From a virus: a stretch of 47,363 bases of DNA. Each line of letters starts with the position of its first letter. Position 1 is the stretch's first letter. The notes beneath the pieces are model-generated. The model saw nothing but the letters and a program-made list of their open reading frames with translations. It searched no databases and was not told the DNA's origin. This document shows, piece after piece, positions 20,813 to 43,092 of this stretch. Made by a program: the position numbers and the translations under genes. The stretch lies in IMG/VR virus record IMGVR_UViG_3300009176_000017, positions 1 through 47,363 of that record; one strand, given 5' to 3'.

Positions 20813-21045
20813 GGCTTCTCCCGCTCGGCCAGCATCGCGTCGGCGAAGGCGTACGCCGACGCTGCGACGGACCTCGGCCCCGCGCTCCCAGGGGACATGT
20901 CGTATACGCATGTGGCGAGGATTCCAGTGAGCGCGTGCGCAGCGAAGTAGTCGCGGAGCGTCATGCCGGGTTGGAAAAATGTCTGCGGCTCGCCATGGTC
21001 ATCAACGATACAGGTAAAAGGAAACGCCGCGGTGTCCATCTTCAC
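20809..21045 (-). CDS. small conserved-type phage protein (LRDYFA motif)
   Basis: A 78-aa protein. GTG 21045 overlaps the annealing-protein stop (GTGA) behind GGAGGTGA; ATG 21039 is an alternative. The pattern GMTLRDYFAAHAL ... AYAFADAMLAER is that of a small family common in the recombination regions of tailed phages, function unknown. Confidence 0.75.
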   Translation of the reverse strand: MKMDTAAFPFTCIVDDHGEPQTFFQPGMTLRDYFAAHALTGILATCVYDMSPGSAGPRSVAASAYAFADAMLAEREKP

Positions 21046-22079
21046 GAGATCACCTCCACGCGCTGGAGCTTCCGCGGGTAGTTGCCGTTGGGCTCCGACT
21101 CGATCCTGACCGCGGCCCCGGAAGAGCAAGCGTCGCCGGCCGCCTTTCCGAGCGAGGGGAGCACCGTCTCGTACTTGACCCCGTTGGAGTCGAGGACGAC
21201 CCAGGAGCGGCCTTCCGAGCCGTCCCTTTTCGTGAACGTCTTCGGGATGACCTCCGCGATGCGTATGCCGCCCCCAGGAGGCGCCGGAGCCTTCTCGGGC
21301 GCCCTTGCCTGCGTCTGAGCCTGCGGGGCCGTCCTGGGCGATCCTGACGCAGATGCGGGGGCATTCACGAAGCCGGTCTCCTTGTAGAACGGCGGGGCGT
21401 CCTTCCGGCGCCACTGGGGCGTCTTCTTCCCCTCGACCCAGACCTGTACGCAGTTCTCGGCCTTCCACTTCTCCGTGTAGTGCCGATCCCACAGCTCGGA
21501 GGCGATGTTGAGATCCTTCGCGCAGCGAGTAAGGGCCGTGCTCTTGGCGCCCTCCAGGGCCGTCGCGTACGTGAGCTGGTTCGTCCCCATGACGAAATCC
21601 TGCTCTCCCCACGCCTGCGAGACGAAGCGGCCCGTGACGAAGAGCGCCCACTCCTGCGAGACGTGGGGCGTCGGTTCCTGCTCACGGGTCGGCGGTCCGA
21701 CCGGACGGAGGCCCCACGCGCCGACCCCGAAGGCATCGGAGAAGATCCGGCGATACCGCGTCTGGCTCATGAACAACTCGCCCGAGGGCTTCACGTCGAT
21801 GTCGGCATCGGGGATTGGTGCCCTCAGGATCTTCTGCTGCTCGTCGGTCAGCACGAGGACGCCCGGCACTTGCTGATAGCCGGTGTCGAAACTCGCCGAC
21901 CGCTCCATCACAGAGGCGATGGGCGCATCCTCGGCCCTCTTCGGGATGACGCTGATTCCGCGCTCCTCGTAAGCCTCCACGGGAGGGTCGTCTCCCATGT
22001 CCGGGGGCTCGGGCATCTCGTTGTCCCCCTCTGGCTCTTCGCCCTCAAGGGGCGGTTCCTCGATTGAAAACCTTGTCAT
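21042..22079 (-). CDS. Rad52/Mgm101-like single-strand annealing protein
   Basis: A 345-aa protein. Residues 1-60 are acidic and disordered. Residues about 100-200 carry a Rad52-superfamily core: RYRRIFSDAFGVGAWGLRPVG, then the helix YATALEGAKSTALTRCAKDL at 171-190 followed by NIASELWD. A Pro-rich linker (about 240-270) leads to a C-terminal beta domain (about 274-345) that could be an OB fold. Such proteins coat ssDNA and anneal complementary strands. The gene follows, with 35-base overlap, the exonuclease, its usual partner. ATG 22079 has GAGGAA at seven bases. A palindrome and weak promoter lie just upstream. Confidence 0.8.
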   Translation of the reverse strand: MTRFSIEEPPLEGEEPEGDNEMPEPPDMGDDPPVEAYEERGISVIPKRAEDAPIASVMERSASFDTGYQQVPGVLVLTDEQQKILRAPIPDADIDVKPSGELFMSQTRYRRIFSDAFGVGAWGLRPVGPPTREQEPTPHVSQEWALFVTGRFVSQAWGEQDFVMGTNQLTYATALEGAKSTALTRCAKDLNIASELWDRHYTEKWKAENCVQVWVEGKKTPQWRRKDAPPFYKETGFVNAPASASGSPRTAPQAQTQARAPEKAPAPPGGGIRIAEVIPKTFTKRDGSEGRSWVVLDSNGVKYETVLPSLGKAAGDACSSGAAVRIESEPNGNYPRKLQRVEVIS

Positions 22080-23049
22080 AATAATGTTCCTCGCTCTTTG
22101 GAGAATTTAGGGCAGTCCCTTGAATTTCAAGGGAGGCTTTGAGGTTTTCGAGTAATTCGTCCTTCGGCTTGAGTAATTCCTTGCCGAAGCGACAGACGGG
22201 GGCAGCGGCGCAGAAGGACAGACAGCGCGTGGGCTCACCGGGCCGCACGTCGATATGTGTTCCGCCGTTCTTCGCCTTCCACGACTCCGCCTCGTCGAGA
22301 GTTGGGAGGAGCCGGAGCGCGCTCTTCCGTCCCGTCTTCATCACGGCGTAGGCGGGCTCAGCCTCCCAGCGTTCCGATGGGGTACAGAGGGGGATCGCGT
22401 CGTCCCTGAGCGCCCGCGCCTCTTGATGGAGCCTGACCCTCGCGTCGAGGTAGGCGTTCGTCTCTTCGCTCGTCCATGTCGGCACGTCTACCATTTGCAC
22501 CTGAGTCGGCGGATGTTCCCCCCGCTGGGCCTTCCGTTTCGACCAGTCCCGGAAGAGATAGACGAGGCGGAGCGAATTGACCGGGCCGTAGCCGTTTCGC
22601 CGCATGAATTCCGCGAGGCAATTTAATTGCGCCGTCTTGTCTGGCTTCGGGCCGTTGAGCGCCTCCCACACGCTCACGACTTTCCAGTCGTCGAGCCGAT
22701 AGCCGGCGTCTTGATGTCTGTAGTACGCGATATCGAGGGCGCCGGAGAGTTTCCAGCCGCGAACGTTGGCGTAGAGGCGTTTCTCGACGAGATAACCCTC
22801 CATCCCGTCTGCCACGCCCCTCAGAATCTCGTGCGCGAGGGAGCCAAAGAGCGCGTAAATCACGTCGCTCGCGTCCTCGGTCAGCTCGTCATCGTGGCGC
22901 CGTTTCAGCTCGGAGATCAGCGGCGGCCCGATGAGCGTGGTCAGGCTGATATCGCTCTTCTCCCCGTGGCTCTCTTCGTATCGGCGCCGCACCGCTGCGA
23001 TCGCGTGGACGAGCGGGGCCTCCAAGCCCAAGACGTTCGTCTGCTTCAT
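22045..23049 (-). CDS. RecB/Cas4-like PD-(D/E)XK exonuclease
   Basis: A 334-aa protein. Nuclease residues are visible: His73 in GSLAHEIL, Asp105 in GALDIAYY, then Asp120/Asp121 and Lys123 in RLDDWK, and Gln141 in the following helix (TAQLNCLAEF). Near the C-terminus three closely spaced Cys (CLSFCAAAPVC) plus an earlier Cys could hold an iron-sulfur cluster as in Cas4/AddB nucleases, which is inference. ATG 23049 overlaps the upstream stop (ATGA). The gene order exonuclease then annealing protein is a classic phage two-component recombination module. Confidence 0.8.
   Translation of the reverse strand: MKQTNVLGLEAPLVHAIAAVRRRYEESHGEKSDISLTTLIGPPLISELKRRHDDELTEDASDVIYALFGSLAHEILRGVADGMEGYLVEKRLYANVRGWKLSGALDIAYYRHQDAGYRLDDWKVVSVWEALNGPKPDKTAQLNCLAEFMRRNGYGPVNSLRLVYLFRDWSKRKAQRGEHPPTQVQMVDVPTWTSEETNAYLDARVRLHQEARALRDDAIPLCTPSERWEAEPAYAVMKTGRKSALRLLPTLDEAESWKAKNGGTHIDVRPGEPTRCLSFCAAAPVCRFGKELLKPKDELLENLKASLEIQGTALNSPKSEEHYYDKVFNRGTAP
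22104..22133 (-). promoter_or_regulatory. operator-like palindrome with weak promoter before annealing gene
   Basis: CCCTTGAATTTCAAGGG (22117-22133) is a perfect 17-bp palindrome with 8-bp arms. On the minus strand it contains TTGAAA (22125-22130), and TAAATT lies at 22104-22109, 15 bases downstream, 25 bases before the annealing-protein ATG. The site lies within the 3' end of the exonuclease coding sequence. Confidence 0.4.
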
Positions 23050-26648: not shown

Positions 26649-26714
26649 GTTTCGTTTCCTCCCGATCGGAGCCGGTTCCCCGGCTCTCATCGCGAGGGGG
26701 AGCTAGGCTCCCCC
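26649..26714 (-). promoter_or_regulatory. RNA switch-like leader, copy 1
   Basis: In the minus-strand RNA, an 8-bp hairpin (26707-26714 with 26696-26703, 3-nt loop) is followed by TCGCGAT, then a 7-bp hairpin with GGAA-type loop (26680-26686 with 26669-26675), then the GGGAG ribosome site (26659-26663). The CTCCC in the 3' arm of the first hairpin (26698-26702) can instead pair with that ribosome site, so the two states exclude each other. The same plan recurs at 26890-26956. Confidence 0.55.
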
Positions 26715-26724
26715 GGAATGCAAG

Positions 26725-26889
26725 TTAATCGACCATAACGCGCGTCCAGCCATGCTCAACCGGGCCGAAATCCATCTTGTCATAATCCCAACGTTGCCGC
26801 GTCGTTCGCACGATGCGATGTTTCGCGCGCATCCACGGCGCAAATTCGAGGAGAGACAGAAGGGCGGCCGCGCGAGTCGTGAAAAACAT
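26725..26889 (-). CDS. 54-aa protein behind structured leader
   Basis: ATG 26889 follows GGGAGGATAAGCAT and ends at TAA 26725, close to the first hairpin of the next leader. The N-terminal half is a hydrophobic helix (ALLSLLEFAPW), the second half basic and aromatic. Too short for a family call; the strong ribosome site and homologous leader support translation. Confidence 0.6.
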   Translation of the reverse strand: MFFTTRAAALLSLLEFAPWMRAKHRIVRTTRQRWDYDKMDFGPVEHGWTRVMVD

Positions 26890-26956
26890 ATGCTTATCCT
26901 CCCGGTAAGAGTCGCCTTGACGGCTCTTATCGCGAGGGAGCGCCTGTCACACGCTC
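26890..26956 (-). promoter_or_regulatory. RNA switch-like leader, copy 2
   Basis: In minus-strand RNA: a 5-bp hairpin (26952-26956 with 26938-26942), TCGCGAT, a 9-bp hairpin (26921-26929 with 26906-26914, one T.G pair, 6-nt loop) and the GGGAGG ribosome site (26898-26903). CTCCC (26936-26940) overlaps the first hairpin and is complementary to the ribosome site. The order of parts and the spacer match copy 1, although stem sequences differ and keep pairing. Confidence 0.55.
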
Positions 26957-27138
26957 ATTCGCTTGCGGTCTTTTGTGACGATTGACGCTAGCTTGCCCGA
27001 CTACGCCGCGTGCTCTGCGCTCTTGCTAGGAGCGGGAGGGATCAGCGACGCATGGAGCCGAACGCCCCGATTGACCGCTAAGTTTTCAAAGAGAGCCGTG
27101 ATCGCGAGGACCAGGGGAAGCCGTTAGGCGTTCCGAGC

Positions 27139-27157
27139 GTCCTCCCGGTGGGAGGAC
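27139..27157 (-). terminator. strong hairpin after 77-aa gene
   Basis: GTCCTCCC and GGGAGGAC form an 8-bp stem with a 3-nt loop, 11 bases after the minus-strand stop at 27169. No T-run follows, so it may be a factor-assisted terminator or RNA 3' end. The remainder of 26957-27168 holds no gene I can support, only a partial CTCGCGAT motif near 27102-27109. Confidence 0.45.
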
Positions 27158-27168
27158 CGATGCAGCGT

Positions 27169-27402
27169 CTAGGAATGCGGACCGAAGGAGAAGACACGCT
27201 CAAGCTGCGCCGCGAGCATTTGCGCCTGAGCGGTCAGAGCGTTGACGTTGAGGCGGAGCGTTCCCGCGTAGTCGCGAAGTTCGGAATGCGCCTCCCATCG
27301 CGCCGTCTCGTAACCGCGAAGCTCTGAATAGAGCACGGCAAGCCGGGATTCGAGACTCGTAACTTCGTCCTCGATTGCCGAGAGAGTTACCGTCGTTAGC
27401 AT
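27169..27402 (-). CDS. 77-aa coiled-coil protein
   Basis: ATG 27402 has AGGGGA eight bases upstream and the best promoter of the window just beyond (27433-27461). The whole protein is a helix with heptad-like Leu/Ala spacing (EDEVTSLESRLAVLYSELRG, LRLNVNALTAQAQML). Likely self-associating; function unknown. As the first gene downstream of the palindrome-rich region it could be a regulator or partner of that region. Confidence 0.7.
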   Translation of the reverse strand: MLTTVTLSAIEDEVTSLESRLAVLYSELRGYETARWEAHSELRDYAGTLRLNVNALTAQAQMLAAQLERVFSFGPHS

Positions 27403-27432
27403 GTTCGTTCCCCTTTCGCTGTTCACGGATAC

Positions 27433-27461
27433 AAGATAGGGTCCTAACGGTGAGGAGTCAA
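27433..27461 (-). promoter_or_regulatory. sigma70 promoter (TTGACT-17-TATCTT)
   Basis: On the minus strand TTGACT (27456-27461) and TATCTT (27433-27438) with ideal 17-base spacing, 31 bases upstream of the ATG at 27402. It is the strongest match to the sigma70 consensus that I found. Confidence 0.7.
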
Positions 27462-27530
27462 GGGTAGGAGAGAAGAAAAGCGTGAAACATGGCTCCGACT
27501 AACATGTGGTAGTAGTGCTACTTGGCTAAG

Positions 27531-27548
27531 ATGTCGGCGCGCCGACAT
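27531..27548. promoter_or_regulatory. perfect 18-bp palindrome
   Basis: ATGTCGGCGCGCCGACAT is a complete palindrome with no central spacer, typical of a dimeric protein binding site. It lies 70 bases upstream of the minus-strand promoter at 27433-27461. Confidence 0.6.
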
Positions 27549-27577
27549 GAGCGTGAGCGCCAGCTCGTGGGCTAGCT

Positions 27578-27637
27578 CGTTGTCGAAAAGACAACGCGAC
27601 GCCAAGCTAGCCTAGGCGTTGTTCTTTTGACAACAAC
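27578..27637. repeat. pair of GTTGT hairpins
   Basis: CGTTGTC-GAAAA-GACAACG (27578-27596) forms a 7-bp hairpin. A second hairpin (GTTGTT at 27618-27623 with AACAAC at 27632-27637) follows 20 bases later and is close to the reverse complement of the first, including its CTTTT loop. GCTAGC also occurs once before the first and once between them. Confidence 0.6.
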
Positions 27638-27706
27638 CCGTAGCGGGGGAGATGATGGGGCCAGGGGGAGGCAGAGAGGACGGTATTAGCCTTAGAGGTG
27701 CAGGAG

Positions 27707-27722
27707 TGTTCCACGTGGAACA
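27707..27722. promoter_or_regulatory. parS-type centromere palindrome, copy 1
   Basis: TGTTCCACGTGGAACA, a perfect 16-bp palindrome, is the GC-rich form of the bacterial chromosomal parS consensus (TGTTTCACGTGAAACA; differs at two symmetrical bases). An identical copy lies at 40578-40593. No ParA or ParB gene was found in the window. Confidence 0.7.
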
Positions 27723-27782
27723 CAGCCCCTAAGCAGGGTTGAAGTCCTCTCGGCTCAGTGACTTAGCTCAGTCCTACTTAGT

Positions 27783-27809
27783 CAGACCCTACCCCGGTAG
27801 CCGGGTCTG
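27783..27809. other. CAGACCC/GGGTCTG hairpin
   Basis: A 7-bp inverted repeat (27783-27789, 27803-27809) with a 13-nt loop, which itself contains TACC/GGTA complementarity. It is part of the noncoding control region. Confidence 0.45.
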
Positions 27810-27914
27810 CCCCCCAAGGGGAGACGGTGCAAGGAGAACGGGGGGAGTACTTACCAGGGTATGACCACCAGGGGAGCCTCTGAGGCTCGACCCGTAGGCT
27901 AGGAGAGCCGAAGA

Positions 27915-27930
27915 GCGGCCTTCTGGCCGC
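27915..27930. other. GCGGCC-TTCT-GGCCGC hairpin
   Basis: A perfect 6-bp stem with tetraloop TTCT lies about 60 bases beyond the stop of the minus-strand gene at 27990; it could act as a transcript 3' end for the upstream early operon. Confidence 0.45.
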
Positions 27931-27989
27931 CTAGGAACCGCAGGCACGCGAGCGATACCGGACAACATGTGGTCCTGCGAAGGCAAAAG

Positions 27990-28199
27990 TCAAGGCTTCG
28001 GCGAAGATTTCGTTGGGAGGAGTCTACCGTCCGCCCCACGAGGAGCCTTCCCGGCGCGGACGTAGGCGTTCCGGCGGCTCTTCACGTCATGAAACATCTT
28101 CGTTATGAAGAGGCTCTTGGCTTCCTTCACGCAGGCGTAGCACCGTCCATCGGTCATCGTCTCCTCGGGCATGTCCCTTGGGCAACTCCGACAAATCAC
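27990..28199 (-). CDS. 69-aa zinc-ribbon protein ending the early operon
   Basis: GTG 28199 overlaps the upstream stop (GTGA). CRSC near the start and CYAC at about 20-23 make a two-knuckle zinc ribbon; the remainder is basic (KSRRNAYVRAGKAPRG). It is the last gene before the noncoding control region. DNA or RNA binding is plausible. Confidence 0.7.
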   Translation of the reverse strand: MICRSCPRDMPEETMTDGRCYACVKEAKSLFITKMFHDVKSRRNAYVRAGKAPRGADGRLLPTKSSPKP

Positions 28200-32698: not shown

Positions 32699-33060
32699 TC
32701 CCCCTCCGTCTCTTTTTGGATGGCGGATTCGCGCAGGACGCGCACGTAGGATTTCACGTCCCCCCGGTCACAGCCGGCGGCGTCGAGGCAATCCGCGATG
32801 TATCCGAAATTGTGAACGCAACCCATGCCTTCCATGCGGAAGGCTATGTTCTCCGGCGTGATGCTGCCGTCGTACTTGGCCGCCGCGAGCATGGCCGTCC
32901 AGGCGTATTTTCCCGCAGACGAGGCCATCTGGCCGGGCTCCACGTCCGCCCATTGAAAAAGCTCCTGCGAGACGAGGACGGTCCCGATCAGGGCCATCTC
33001 CGCCATCTCGGCCGGCGATTTGTGAGCGTGTGCGCGATAGAACTTACCCCCGATCGGCAT
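32695..33060 (-). CDS. stand-alone DnaB N-terminal-domain protein
   Basis: A 121-aa protein with ATG 33060 and a strong GGGGAGG. Its helices fit the DnaB N-terminal collar domain: AEMALIGTVLVSQELF (about 20-35), WTAMLAAAKYDG, ITPENIAFRMEG, YIADCLDAAG, and the closing YVRVLRESAIQKE. The family normally forms the N-tier of the hexameric helicase and binds primase. Here it ends at once and the ATPase follows as a separate gene. It is immediately downstream of the replication initiator, completing a replisome cassette. Confidence 0.75.
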   Translation of the reverse strand: MPIGGKFYRAHAHKSPAEMAEMALIGTVLVSQELFQWADVEPGQMASSAGKYAWTAMLAAAKYDGSITPENIAFRMEGMGCVHNFGYIADCLDAAGCDRGDVKSYVRVLRESAIQKETEGE

Positions 33061-33895
33061 TGCTTGGCCTCCCCATCTGACGAGCCTCCTCGAAAAGTTC
33101 GCGGTTGCGCCGCTCGGTCTCGGCTATCTCGGCGGCCGTTGGGACCTTCGGGCCGCCGCGGTTGTCGTACTTGCCCTCTTCGATCTTCGTAATGGAGTCA
33201 GGCTTCAACAGGAAATCGAAGTCGGCCACCCAATTGCGATCGTTCTCGCCCGACGCGAAGCGAGAGGCGGCCAGCCGGGTGATGGCCTCCGCCCAGCGGG
33301 CGCCGTCCGGGCATTCCGCGAGGCGGGCCTTGGCCCTGGCGGCCCGACTCTTCGTGAGCCTCTTCGCCTCCGGCAGAGGCCCCCTCATCGAATTCCACAT
33401 CGCGAAAAGACGAAGAGGAGCCTGAGGCGGAGCCGAAGAAGACTCCCTCTTTATCTCTGCTTCTGCTTCTGCTATAGGTGATTTTGATGACGGAACGTTT
33501 ACGCCTGTTGACGATTGTTTACGTTTGTTTACAGCTCGACGCTCTTTCTGGTAGTCCTTCATGTATTCGCGACGGTCCTCGCCGCGACCCATCTCTCTGT
33601 ATTTGCCGTAGTTAATTATCTCCCAGCCGCCGTCAACCTCACGAAGACGCCTGCCTTCGTCGGTCTTGGTTCGGGAGTCGAGATCAGGAGCGAGGAACCG
33701 ATTGATCGCGGCCCGACAGCCCTCTTTCGAGACGCGAGCCACATCAGCTAGACCGGGAATCGAGGCCCAGACGTGTCCTTCCTTGTCGGAAAGAGCCAGG
33801 AGCGTGACCCAGACGATGCGGGTCTCGTGGTCCTCGCACCAGATCGTCGAGGTTGTGATGGACGAGAAGAGCTTGGTAAATCCCCTCAACGGCAC
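33044..33895 (-). CDS. replication initiator/organiser (winged-helix N-terminus)
   Basis: A 283-aa protein as called from GTG 33895 (GGAGG lies just upstream); TTG 33889 with longer spacing and TTG 33919 without a site are alternatives. Residues about 5-60 (FTKLFSSITTSTIWCEDHETRIVWVTLLALSDKEG) match the start of many phage replication organiser proteins with a helix-turn-helix/winged domain. A basic linker and an acidic C-terminus (about 255-283) follow. It heads the helicase-half genes and probably binds the origin and loads the helicase. A promoter (33930-33958) lies upstream. Confidence 0.75.
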   Translation of the reverse strand: MPLRGFTKLFSSITTSTIWCEDHETRIVWVTLLALSDKEGHVWASIPGLADVARVSKEGCRAAINRFLAPDLDSRTKTDEGRRLREVDGGWEIINYGKYREMGRGEDRREYMKDYQKERRAVNKRKQSSTGVNVPSSKSPIAEAEAEIKRESSSAPPQAPLRLFAMWNSMRGPLPEAKRLTKSRAARAKARLAECPDGARWAEAITRLAASRFASGENDRNWVADFDFLLKPDSITKIEEGKYDNRGGPKVPTAAEIAETERRNRELFEEARQMGRPSNADRG

Positions 33896-33929
33896 CGACC
33901 TCCGGCTTGTAAACTCCAAGAGCTAACAA

Positions 33930-39879: not shown

Positions 39880-40400
39880 GCGAGGAGACTGCGCCCAAGA
39901 AAAAGATCGGGCGTCCTCGCGGTAGCCGTACCCGGAAGCCCGAGGAGGAGTATTTCGCTCCCCAGGTAAAGGCCGAGGGAATCGACGCGAACGGGAAGCC
40001 GATCAAGATCGAAGCCGACTCCTACGAGCTTCGCGGTGAGACGCACGTCTTCACGCGCTACCGGAACGCCTACACGGAGCGTGAGTACGTCTCGTCTCCG
40101 CGGCGCCTCATCGTGCGGGAGCCGGCCCAGGCCGTGACGCGGACCCCGCCGTTCTCGCCTGAGATGCGCGCATGGCTTAATAACCCAACTCCGTATGCGG
40201 CCGTAAATACGACGCCCGCGCCTAACGATCATCCCCAGTATTGGGACCCCCGCGTCCCCGCGCCTACCGGCCCGAGGATCGAAGGACCGCCGCGGCTAAG
40301 GGCCGTGGAGACGCCTCTCGGCACCCAAACGCAGCTCGCCAACGGTCAGGTGGTCGTTGGCGGCTTCATGCCCGACGCGCCGGCAGGGGGCATGGGCTAG
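39876..40400 (+). CDS. AT-hook protein upstream of terminase
   Basis: A 174-aa protein with an N-terminal AT-hook (KKKIGRPRGSRTRK, about 8-21), a beta-like middle (YELRGETHVFTRYRNAYTEREYV) and a proline-rich disordered C-terminus. It is coupled to the previous gene (ATGA) and ends one base before the terminase start. Candidate DNA-binding partner of the terminase; inferred from position. Confidence 0.65.
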   Translation: MSEETAPKKKIGRPRGSRTRKPEEEYFAPQVKAEGIDANGKPIKIEADSYELRGETHVFTRYRNAYTEREYVSSPRRLIVREPAQAVTRTPPFSPEMRAWLNNPTPYAAVNTTPAPNDHPQYWDPRVPAPTGPRIEGPPRLRAVETPLGTQTQLANGQVVVGGFMPDAPAGGMG

Positions 40401-40401
40401 G

Positions 40402-43092
40402 TTGGGAGTCATCAACGGGCGGCGGCTGAGTCCAGATGCGGAGAAGGGCCTCTCGGATTTCTTCCATTTCTGCACGTTCTACTGGGGTCTCGACCTCCGG
40501 GAGCAGCCGCACCGTTTGATGACGGATTGTTTCGCCGCTAACGAGCTGGAGCCGAACAAGCCCTTCACGATGACGATTGTTCCACGTGGAACATACAAGT
40601 GCCAAAGTCGGGACGAGTACGAGGACATGGAGGGGCGCGTCCCGGTTGAGGTTGAATTGATGAAGGCGCGCGAGGGCGGTAGGCTGGTGGAGCCTAACGG
40701 CGTCGCCCCTGTGTATCGCGTCACGACGGCCTCGGGACGCTCGCTCGACGTGACCGGGAACCACCCATTCCGGACGTGGGATGGTTGGAAGAGCGTCGAT
40801 GAGGGGTTGGCGCCCGGTCAATGGGTCGCGGTGCTTCGTCGCGGCGTCTTTGGTAGCGAACATCAGCCGGAGTTGGCAAGGCTGGTCGGATGGATGCTCG
40901 CGGACGCGCATCTCCCGGCTCAGACGGTTGCTGCGCAGGACCCAGCCGAACAAGACGAGTTGATCGCGCTCGCGGAACGGTGCGGCTACAGCTCCGCCAA
41001 GATGCCGGACGGGACGGGCGTGCGTATCCACGGGATGCAGGACGTTTGGAGAGGCTGGGGTCTCTTCCGGGCCAAGAGCGCGACTAAATTCACGCCCAAT
41101 TTCGTGTTGCAGGGCGACGAGGCGACTGTGCGGGCGTATCTGGAGGGCCTTTTCCGCGATGCGGGGCTCGCGGCCGGGCGAAACGGGGGCGTGGTCTACA
41201 CGTCGATCTCGCGACGACTCGCGCGGGATGTCCAACATCTACTCGTAAAGTTTGGTCTCCACGCGCTCCTCACGGAGCTGGAAAACCTCGACGGGCGCAT
41301 GGCCGGCGTACCGGAAGGGTACGTGTGGTACACGGTCACATACACGGACCACGCCGGGATCTTTACCGAGGCGGCGCTAAACGGGCCGTCGCCGACCGAC
41401 AGGTTTCCGTCCGAATGGCGCAAGCGAATCCCGGAGGGTATGGGGCTTAAGTTGCGCGAGGCCGGGATTAGGGTAGATAACAACTATGCGACCACCCGCG
41501 ACAAGGTTCGACGCGCCGCGGAGTTTCTCGGCGACGAATGGCTCGTCGCGCTTTGCGATTCGGACGTAGGTTTCGAGCCGATCAAGAGCGTGCGTTATCT
41601 TGGCGAGATGGAAACCGTAGCCGCCGAAAGCGAGACGCACACCCTTGGCGACGGTGACATCTTGACCCATAACTCGTCGATCGGCGCCCGTGCGCTCCCC
41701 GTCTGGAAGCAGCTTCGGCGGATCTACCTCGACGACAACCCCTACCACCGCATCATGCTCGTGTCGTCCACGCTGCGCCTCATGGAGCAGCACATGGGCG
41801 TTATCGAGCGGCAGCTTCGGTTCAACGCGAAGCTCAACGAAGCCTACGGACCCCTCTGGGCGAATGCCACGAGGGGCGGCGACGGCTCCAAGGGTGAGTT
41901 CGGCTTCAACCTCTTCCAGCGGATTCAGGCGGGGCCTCTCGCGGCTATCTCCGAACCTAACTTCTGGATCGGCTCGATTCGCGCCGCCTCTACCGGCCTC
42001 CACGCCGATGAGGCGATCTGCGATGACATGAACGATAAGGAAAACTCGCGGACGCCGCTCCAGCGGGAGAAGGTCCACGAGCACTGGAACCTGATCTTTC
42101 CCCTGATCGGGACTGAGACCGGCGCCGACGCGAAGATCACGTTCATCGGGACGCCTTGGCATGACGACGACGTGCGCGGGCGAATCCTTCGAAACGAGGA
42201 CGCGCTCCAGGCGGAGGATGCGGATTACAACTCCCGGTGGACCGTCACCGTCCGCGGCTGCTACAACGACGACGGCTCTTCGTTCTTCCCGGAGAAGCTC
42301 CCGCTCGAAAGGCTGGAGAAGCTCAAGAACGACATGGGGCCTCGTCTCTTCGCTGCGAATTACGAGTGCGATCCGGTCGGCGATACCGGCTTCGTGGACG
42401 AGGACCAGATCCAGTGGAAGAGCCGGGCCAACTTCCCCGCTCTCCGTGACGGTCGGATCACGGTGGACCCGAACCAGCACTCGGACGCGAAGACGAACGG
42501 CTGCTACGCCGCGATCATGGTCACGGCCTACGACAAGTTCGCGAAGATGTACGTTCAAGATGCCCGCGGCGCCCGCGAATGGGACACGCTGGACCTCATC
42601 AACGCTCTTTTCGAGCTTCAAGAAATCTACCCCAACTACCCAATCTTCATCGAAGATGCCCACATGGCTCACTTCGCGCAGGCGGTATCTCTGGAAGAGG
42701 CCCGGCGCAGCGATGAGCAGGGGAAGAGGGTCCACCTCCGCATCAACTACATGCCGGTGGACTACAAGGCGTCGAAGTATGAGAGGGCTGATCGTCTCCG
42801 CCCGCGCTTCCGCAACCGGGCCGTCTTCTTCGCCGACGAGATTTCCCCGAAGATCAAGCTGGAGATCAAGGAAGAGCTGATTCGCGGCCCCGAAGTCGCT
42901 CGGTTCAAGGACTTCCTCGACGCCCTTGCGATGGCCGAGAACGGCGTCCGGCCGCGGCTCAACGGCGACGGGACGTTCAAGGAAGTCGGAGCCATCGCGA
43001 CGAGACAGACCCAGGAGGAGAAGGAATGGCGCCCGACGTGGGGCTCCGCCTTCCCCGGCCACAAGATCGAAGTCGAGGTTGCGGCGAAGTGA
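40402..43092 (+). CDS. terL: large terminase subunit interrupted by an intein
   Basis: The precursor is 896 aa from TTG 40402 (ATG 40357 in the same frame is possible but overlaps the previous gene). After removal of the 358-aa intein (40600-41673) the terminase is 538 aa. The ATPase site is IVPRGTYK joined to SSIGARALP across the intein; the Walker B region is AICDDMND. The C-terminal RNase-H-like nuclease shows TVDPNQH, IEDAHMAH and DFLDALAMAENG. It drives DNA packaging and cuts genome ends. A parS-type palindrome coincides with the Walker A codons. The stop overlaps the portal GTG (GTGA). Confidence 0.9.
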   Translation: MGVINGRRLSPDAEKGLSDFFHFCTFYWGLDLREQPHRLMTDCFAANELEPNKPFTMTIVPRGTYKCQSRDEYEDMEGRVPVEVELMKAREGGRLVEPNGVAPVYRVTTASGRSLDVTGNHPFRTWDGWKSVDEGLAPGQWVAVLRRGVFGSEHQPELARLVGWMLADAHLPAQTVAAQDPAEQDELIALAERCGYSSAKMPDGTGVRIHGMQDVWRGWGLFRAKSATKFTPNFVLQGDEATVRAYLEGLFRDAGLAAGRNGGVVYTSISRRLARDVQHLLVKFGLHALLTELENLDGRMAGVPEGYVWYTVTYTDHAGIFTEAALNGPSPTDRFPSEWRKRIPEGMGLKLREAGIRVDNNYATTRDKVRRAAEFLGDEWLVALCDSDVGFEPIKSVRYLGEMETVAAESETHTLGDGDILTHNSSIGARALPVWKQLRRIYLDDNPYHRIMLVSSTLRLMEQHMGVIERQLRFNAKLNEAYGPLWANATRGGDGSKGEFGFNLFQRIQAGPLAAISEPNFWIGSIRAASTGLHADEAICDDMNDKENSRTPLQREKVHEHWNLIFPLIGTETGADAKITFIGTPWHDDDVRGRILRNEDALQAEDADYNSRWTVTVRGCYNDDGSSFFPEKLPLERLEKLKNDMGPRLFAANYECDPVGDTGFVDEDQIQWKSRANFPALRDGRITVDPNQHSDAKTNGCYAAIMVTAYDKFAKMYVQDARGAREWDTLDLINALFELQEIYPNYPIFIEDAHMAHFAQAVSLEEARRSDEQGKRVHLRINYMPVDYKASKYERADRLRPRFRNRAVFFADEISPKIKLEIKEELIRGPEVARFKDFLDALAMAENGVRPRLNGDGTFKEVGAIATRQTQEEKEWRPTWGSAFPGHKIEVEVAAK
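40578..40593. promoter_or_regulatory. parS-type palindrome, copy 2, in terminase Walker A codons
   Basis: TGTTCCACGTGGAACA, identical to the site at 27707-27722. It is spelled by the codons ATT GTT CCA CGT GGA ACA (Ile-Val-Pro-Arg-Gly-Thr), all ending in A or T in a genome that prefers G or C, seven bases before the intein. Confidence 0.7.
40600..41673 (+). other. intein with degenerate LAGLIDADG endonuclease
   Basis: 358 codons from Cys (TGC 40600) to His-Asn (41668-41673), followed by Ser. Splicing block B is VTGNHPF; the C-terminal block is SETHTLGDGDILTHN. The central region has dodecapeptide-like motifs LARLVGWMLADAHL and YLEGLFRDAGLAAG, and the linking pattern SISRRLARDVQHLLVKFGL. The second motif has lost the usual Asp position (RDAG in place of DADG), so DNA cutting may be weak or lost while splicing residues are kept. 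Insertion in the Walker A loop means splicing is needed for packaging. Confidence 0.9.

Follow-up and report, generated by a model that had tools for sequence, protein, structure and literature searches.

The virus record analyzed here carries two exact copies of a palindrome that are probably host-type chromosomal parS sites, judging from their sequence, and that would load the ParB protein of the host onto phage DNA; one of the two is written into the codons of the P-loop of the terminase large subunit gene (terL).

Two exact parS-type palindromes in a phage record

The window analyzed is the entire virus record (47,363 bases), which is classed as linear and whose completeness is not established. 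The features on which the following analysis relies are listed below.

40402..43092, + strand, terminase large subunit gene interrupted in frame by an intein (PHROGs phrog_38, E = 1e-51; alignment to intein-free relatives)
40600..41673, + strand, intein of 358 aa (Cys...His-Asn / Ser), lying between the P-loop Lys and Ser (LAGLIDADG_3, E = 8.7e-7)
40578..40593, no strand assigned, parS-type palindrome TGTTCCACGTGGAACA in terL, in the I V P R G T codons ahead of the P-loop lysine
27707..27722, no strand assigned, second exact copy of TGTTCCACGTGGAACA, within a long non-coding stretch
26649..28195, no strand assigned, stretch in which no gene is convincing, containing short direct repeats and the second parS copy

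An initial sequence-only reading had described the terminase palindrome as one of two copies, and a search of the whole record bears this out, with TGTTCCACGTGGAACA present exactly at 27707-27722 and 40578-40593, at a separation of 12.9 kb. No third match was found in the window with up to three mismatches allowed. The number of exact copies expected in the window is 5.9e-6 under a base-composition model and 6.8e-6 under a second-order Markov model; in shuffles of the window, 0.12 matches with up to three mismatches are expected, and two or more such matches were obtained in 2 of 100 shuffles. The copies are identical over exactly 16 bp and the bases flanking them differ on each side, so that the length they share is the length of parS.

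Both copies match exactly the 16-bp inverted repeat TGTTNCACGTGNAACA (N = C or T) of chromosomal parS sites. A table in PMC7022226 lists TGTTCCACGTGGAACA as parS for both P. putida and P. aeruginosa, and for M. xanthus TGTTCCACGTGGAACG, so that the window shares all 16 bp with the P. putida site and the 14-bp core with the M. xanthus site. The table also records parB as non-essential in P. aeruginosa and P. putida. According to PMC4820964, an annealed oligonucleotide with TGTTCCACGTGGAACA, together with P. aeruginosa parA-parB, stabilized a plasmid in E. coli. What sets the present sites apart from chromosomal parS is that they lie on a phage record in which ParB_N was not found, and that one of them is inside a conserved coding region. 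Searches with ParB_N and HTH_ParB returned no match in the record, which may be incomplete, whereas the same searches were positive in 10 of 14 and 9 of 14 control genomes, respectively.

Besides the parS copy, the stretch at 26649-28195 contains direct repeats of 47 bp and 15 bp with a spacing of about 240 bp. An origin of replication at 27707 was considered and rejected, the GC skew showing no clear switch there. No tRNA was found in a search for such genes. Elsewhere in the window, 21042-22016 (- strand) encodes a strong Mgm101 (Rad52-like recombinase) domain and adjoins an exonuclease gene at 22045-23049, with which it likely forms a recombination module.

The terminase copy is spelled by rare codons next to an intein

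The start of terL is uncertain, its frame being open from a TTG at 40357. The gene reads ATT GTT CCA CGT GGA ACA TAC AAG, followed by the intein from TGC (40600) to AAC (41673) and then by TCG TCG. The Intein_splicing match to this intein scores below its cut-off; the extein alignment to intein-free relatives crosses the intein junction free of gaps. The spliced protein contains PRGTYKSS, the terminase P-loop, which the intein splits between K and S at a known intein insertion point. As originally read, positions 40578-40593 are spelled by the codons ATT GTT CCA CGT GGA ACA for Ile-Val-Pro-Arg-Gly-Thr, and the palindrome thus spans the codons directly before the P-loop and extends into it (PRGTYK|SS). 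The distance from the palindrome to the first intein codon is six bases, however, and not seven as had been claimed, and the palindrome center lies 14 bp from the insertion.

These six A/T-ending codons had been called out of keeping with their surroundings, and codon usage in the window agrees. Third positions in its twelve long ORFs are 76-91% G or C, and in the window's own long genes the shares of the codons concerned are 0.108 (ATT), 0.130 (GTT), 0.047 (CCA), 0.108 (CGT), 0.127 (GGA) and 0.037 (ACA). Given the amino acids, the joint synonymous probability of the six codons is 3.4e-7, and that of the core four (GTT CCA CGT GGA) is, with the same shares, about 8e-5. Among 6874 six-codon windows, the palindrome codons rank second in unusualness. 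The most unusual one, at 43059, belongs to an ORF extension overlapping the terminase end and is probably not translated in that frame, because it lies upstream of the chosen start of the ORF.

The parS core is kept in one of two related terminase lineages

Relatives of this terminase are few. A megablast search of the phage collection found no close relative of this phage, a direct TerL search of IMG/VR found no relatives, and the TerL search of named phages gave only matches below 27% identity, with similarly weak results when the terminases of both relatives described below were used as queries. Profile searches of IMG/VR yielded identities above 40% only for contig L134 and the L122/L128 lineage, the remaining seven of ten loci being 25-26% identical. 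A further search added no terminase relative, and two scans of the genome collection returned none.

A codon-neutral search of IMG/VR for the pattern I-V-P-R-G-T-Y-K identified eight stretches, of which two, L122 and L128, are terminases sharing the same protein sequence. Their terminase is intein-free, 44% identical to that of the window, and located on contigs of 60-61% GC. It reads ATC GTT CCA CGT GGA ACC TAC AAG TCG TCC, keeping the 14-bp core; in L128 the outer bases of the palindrome are C...C. Of the 212 residues that are identical in the window and L128 over the entire gene, 94 have the same codon; codon usage predicts 95.9, and synonymous sites are therefore saturated. Identical A/T-ending codons form runs of at most four between the two genes; the run of four falls in the palindrome, and this length was reached in 1 of 20,000 simulations, while a Fisher test on shared A/T-ending codons (4/6 vs 4/30) gives a modest p = 0.014. 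Rare codons common to the window and L128 occur only upstream of the insertion and none downstream. Within L128 itself, the codons at the palindrome are only mildly unusual (rank 285 of 2524). A second parS site was not seen in the L122 or L128 contigs, both of which are fragments.

The closer relative, L134 (54% identity), spells the same residues GTC CCA CGA GGT ACT and does not carry the parS core; its 13.4-kb contig contains no GTTNCACGTGNAAC, even with one mismatch. More distant terminases (26%) read GTT CCG CGC GGT AGC. The wider pattern [FLIMV]-VPRGT-[YF]-K matched 42 stretches, among which terminases were recognized by length and P-loop context in L122/L128, the contig of L134 (as L152), L149 and L158; of these, only L122/L128 has the core. 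The parS site in terL is thus not universal among relatives, since the closer relative lacks the core, and what may be conservation at the DNA level beyond coding constraint is seen in one of two relative lineages.

The proposal that the DNA sequence itself is selected, for which third-base conservation outside an intein context had been suggested as a check, is accordingly favored by L122/L128, which keep GTT CCA CGT GGA despite saturation. Free choice of synonymous codons in related terminases, named beforehand as the observation that would speak against a DNA site, is seen in L134 and not in L122/L128. Among the points that weigh against the parS reading, the core is common to only one independent lineage besides the window, and L134 uses A/T-ending codons here in the absence of parS. 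The L134 codons are also unusual for L134 (rank 66 of 2530). Codon oddity at this place may therefore have another cause, and a weak possibility is left that rare codons as such, acting through translational pausing in the P-loop, are what is maintained.

The same 16-mer in other phages

The exact 16-mer is present in at least 119 IMG/VR stretches, against 10 for a control palindrome of the same composition with a CACGTG center. Among 109 distinct usable IMG/VR sites, 69 fall in called ORFs where 98.4 would be expected from ORF coverage, a bias away from genes, with genes called crudely as longest ORFs and the control palindrome providing only 8 usable sites. Fifty parS-bearing contigs, many of them fragments, were chosen by hand (49 of the at least 119 stretches with the exact 16-mer, plus L154); ParB_N was found in 0 of the 50 and Terminase_6N in 13.

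The idea that terL is a preferred place for parS was rejected as a general rule. By frame and coordinates, the site lies within terL in 2 of the 13 Terminase_6N contigs (L008 and L061), which by rough estimate is about the expectation from gene length.

Several individual contigs are worth recording. In GC-rich phage contigs, the exact 16-mer is located just ahead of the WSDWSQIEARI motif within a DNA polymerase gene (L014:9548-9563), inside a helicase-primase gene (L044:7101-7116) and inside another terminase gene (L061:1609-1624). In L110 (3098-3113) a terminase large subunit gene seems to begin a short way downstream of it. A portal-like gene in L048 (3-3014, + strand) apparently contains two inteins, as judged by eye and with no Pfam match, and the 16-mer follows the end of the second one by 12 codons (CGN|TEGSTPGVVQVVPRGT); this second case of parS beside an intein may be due to chance.

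In 50,697 named phage records, whose counts are inflated by near-identical phages, the exact 16-mer is found in 58. Seventeen of these are Pseudomonas records, including some GenBank/RefSeq duplicates, and no Escherichia or Salmonella names occur among the 58. By our own count, 28 sites are outside annotated features and 21 inside, and 9 records are unannotated. The other spelling, TGTTTCACGTGAAACA, is present in 286 records (Listeria 87, Microbacterium 49, Arthrobacter 29, Gordonia 25, and others). Control palindromes TGTCTCACGTGAGACA and TGTTACACGTGTAACA were found in none of the 50,697 records, and TGTTGCACGTGCAACA in 63, all of Synechococcus, the 60 matches listed being all from S-RIM2 and at one place.

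Sixteen isolate genomes, hand-chosen from the 58 exact-16-mer records (10) and from the 286 TGTTTCACGTGAAACA records, 60 of which were listed (6), carry one to six GTTNCACGTGNAAC sites each, 45 in total by our count; the reversed-pattern control gave none in all 16. ParB_N was detected in one (Stenotrophomonas phage BUCTxx99) and not in the other 15. Where the surroundings of isolate sites were viewed, 15 of 16 sites were outside annotated genes: that of the T5-like Vibrio phage phi 3 (KP280063.1, L207) lies in the terminal repeat, with A1 on one side and A2 on the other, and those of XD2 and Lana lie between convergent genes, while in phiR18 the site falls within an annotated 120-bp ORF. Pseudomonas phages KPP25 and vB_PpuM-Amme-3 are examples of laboratory phages whose parS matches that of the host.

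Further observations concern the position of the sites in the genome. Vibrio phage phi 3 has parS in both terminal repeats, which should be the first of its DNA to enter the cell, and Pseudomonas phage SYP has six sites near the genome ends. Perfect parS sites are also present, often outside annotated genes, in several very small microvirus genomes of about 5-7 kb (KT264816, MG945198, PP511565 and others).

Alternative explanations for the palindromes

The sequence-only reading had also raised the possibility of a homing-related origin, in which the palindrome is part of the recognition sequence of the intein endonuclease or belongs to a tract that underwent co-conversion during intein invasion of terL. 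As at LAGLIDADG intein homing sites, the intein in the terminase P-loop adjoins the palindrome, which stops six bases short of the insertion. Beside the insertion, the window flank and the empty site of L128 are closely alike, as one would expect if the intein targeted L128-like alleles, and the L048 portal gene offers a further palindrome close to an apparent intein end. A homing target would be expected only together with the intein and centered on the insertion, whereas this palindrome is off-center by 14 bp, recurs at 27707 in intein-free surroundings 12.9 kb away, and has its core in the intein-free L122/L128 relative. The one-sided sharing of rare codons, upstream of the insertion only, and the identity of the 16-mer with a known parS likewise count against this origin, which we now regard as unlikely.

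It is very unlikely, in our estimation, that Val-Pro-Arg-Gly-Thr spells parS by coincidence and that the intergenic copy is unrelated or due to chance as well. VPRGT requires only certain synonyms to produce the 14-bp core, the closer relative L134 does without it, and findings picked out by a reader lean toward oddities; set against this are the joint probability of the six codons, the exactness of the second copy, the conservation of the core in L128 at saturated synonymous sites, and the excess of parS over control palindromes in phages.

That the palindrome is instead an operator of a phage-encoded regulator, resembling parS by chance, would fit the presence of two copies, one within a long non-coding stretch, in a record where DNA-binding proteins may have gone unrecognized (33044-33919 has a weak, below-cut-off match to HTH_36), but is made improbable by the identity to chromosomal parS over all 16 bp, by the oddity of an operator within a late structural gene, by the lack of a ParB-type HTH in the record, and by the fact that unrelated phages share the 16-mer, many being phages of Pseudomonas, whose own parS has this sequence.

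Proposed mode of action and comparison with known systems

If the two palindromes are host-type parS sites, what is known of ParABS systems suggests that the ParB of the host would bind both of them, close as a CTP-dependent sliding clamp and then spread across the flanking phage DNA. We rank first the possibility that the phage DNA would thereby join the ParA/SMC segregation and positioning machinery of the host, as SGI1 does with the ParABS of its helper plasmid. Extra or alternative benefits could be, in second place, the titration of ParB away from the host chromosome and, in third, the silencing of neighboring phage genes while copy number is still low. Segregation and positioning would most likely be the gain to the phage, ahead of a decoy or silencing effect, although lytic phages with sites near their genome ends fit titration and silencing at least as well. 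The position within the terminase gene would be tolerated because V-P-R-G-T can spell the parS core.

The nearest parallel is SGI1, in which, as described in PMC10954446, two parS mimics use the ParABS of an IncC plasmid, so that SGI1 is stabilized and the helper destabilized. Both cases involve two parS-type sites on a parasitic element and, here as a proposal, the ParB of another replicon. They differ in that SGI1 exploits a plasmid system and its binding was demonstrated, whereas the present case would concern the ParB of a host chromosome and is based on sequence evidence, with parS sites present and ParB_N absent in the record. Phage-borne ParABS systems, which PMC7156551 describes for P1, N15 and cyanophage Mic1, also place a parS-type site on a phage. 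Those phages carry their own ParA and ParB, whereas neither ParB_N nor HTH_ParB, and no recognizable parB of its own, was found in this possibly incomplete record. A literature search on parS and phages, with most subscription journals and preprints outside its coverage, found phage-borne ParABS and label systems but no description of phages that have host-type parS and lack ParB.

Implications for phage biology

We consider it about evenly balanced whether phages commonly capture the host centromere sequence, with ParB-less phages, both virulent ones and others, bearing between one and six parS sites matched to the host and thereby having host ParB clamps loaded early in infection, and with the site in this lineage maintained even within the P-loop codons of the packaging motor. 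If so, the same bases would serve this lineage both as the binding site of a host factor and as a catalytic motif, and the copy in terL would be a clear example of codon bias yielding to a putative DNA-binding site where the motif is essential. Should host ParB load on phage genomes, the bacterial segregation machinery would be a host factor in infection, with a testable role (positioning, decoy, silencing or SMC loading) in many cultivated phages, including those of Pseudomonas, Listeria, Lactobacillus and Gordonia.
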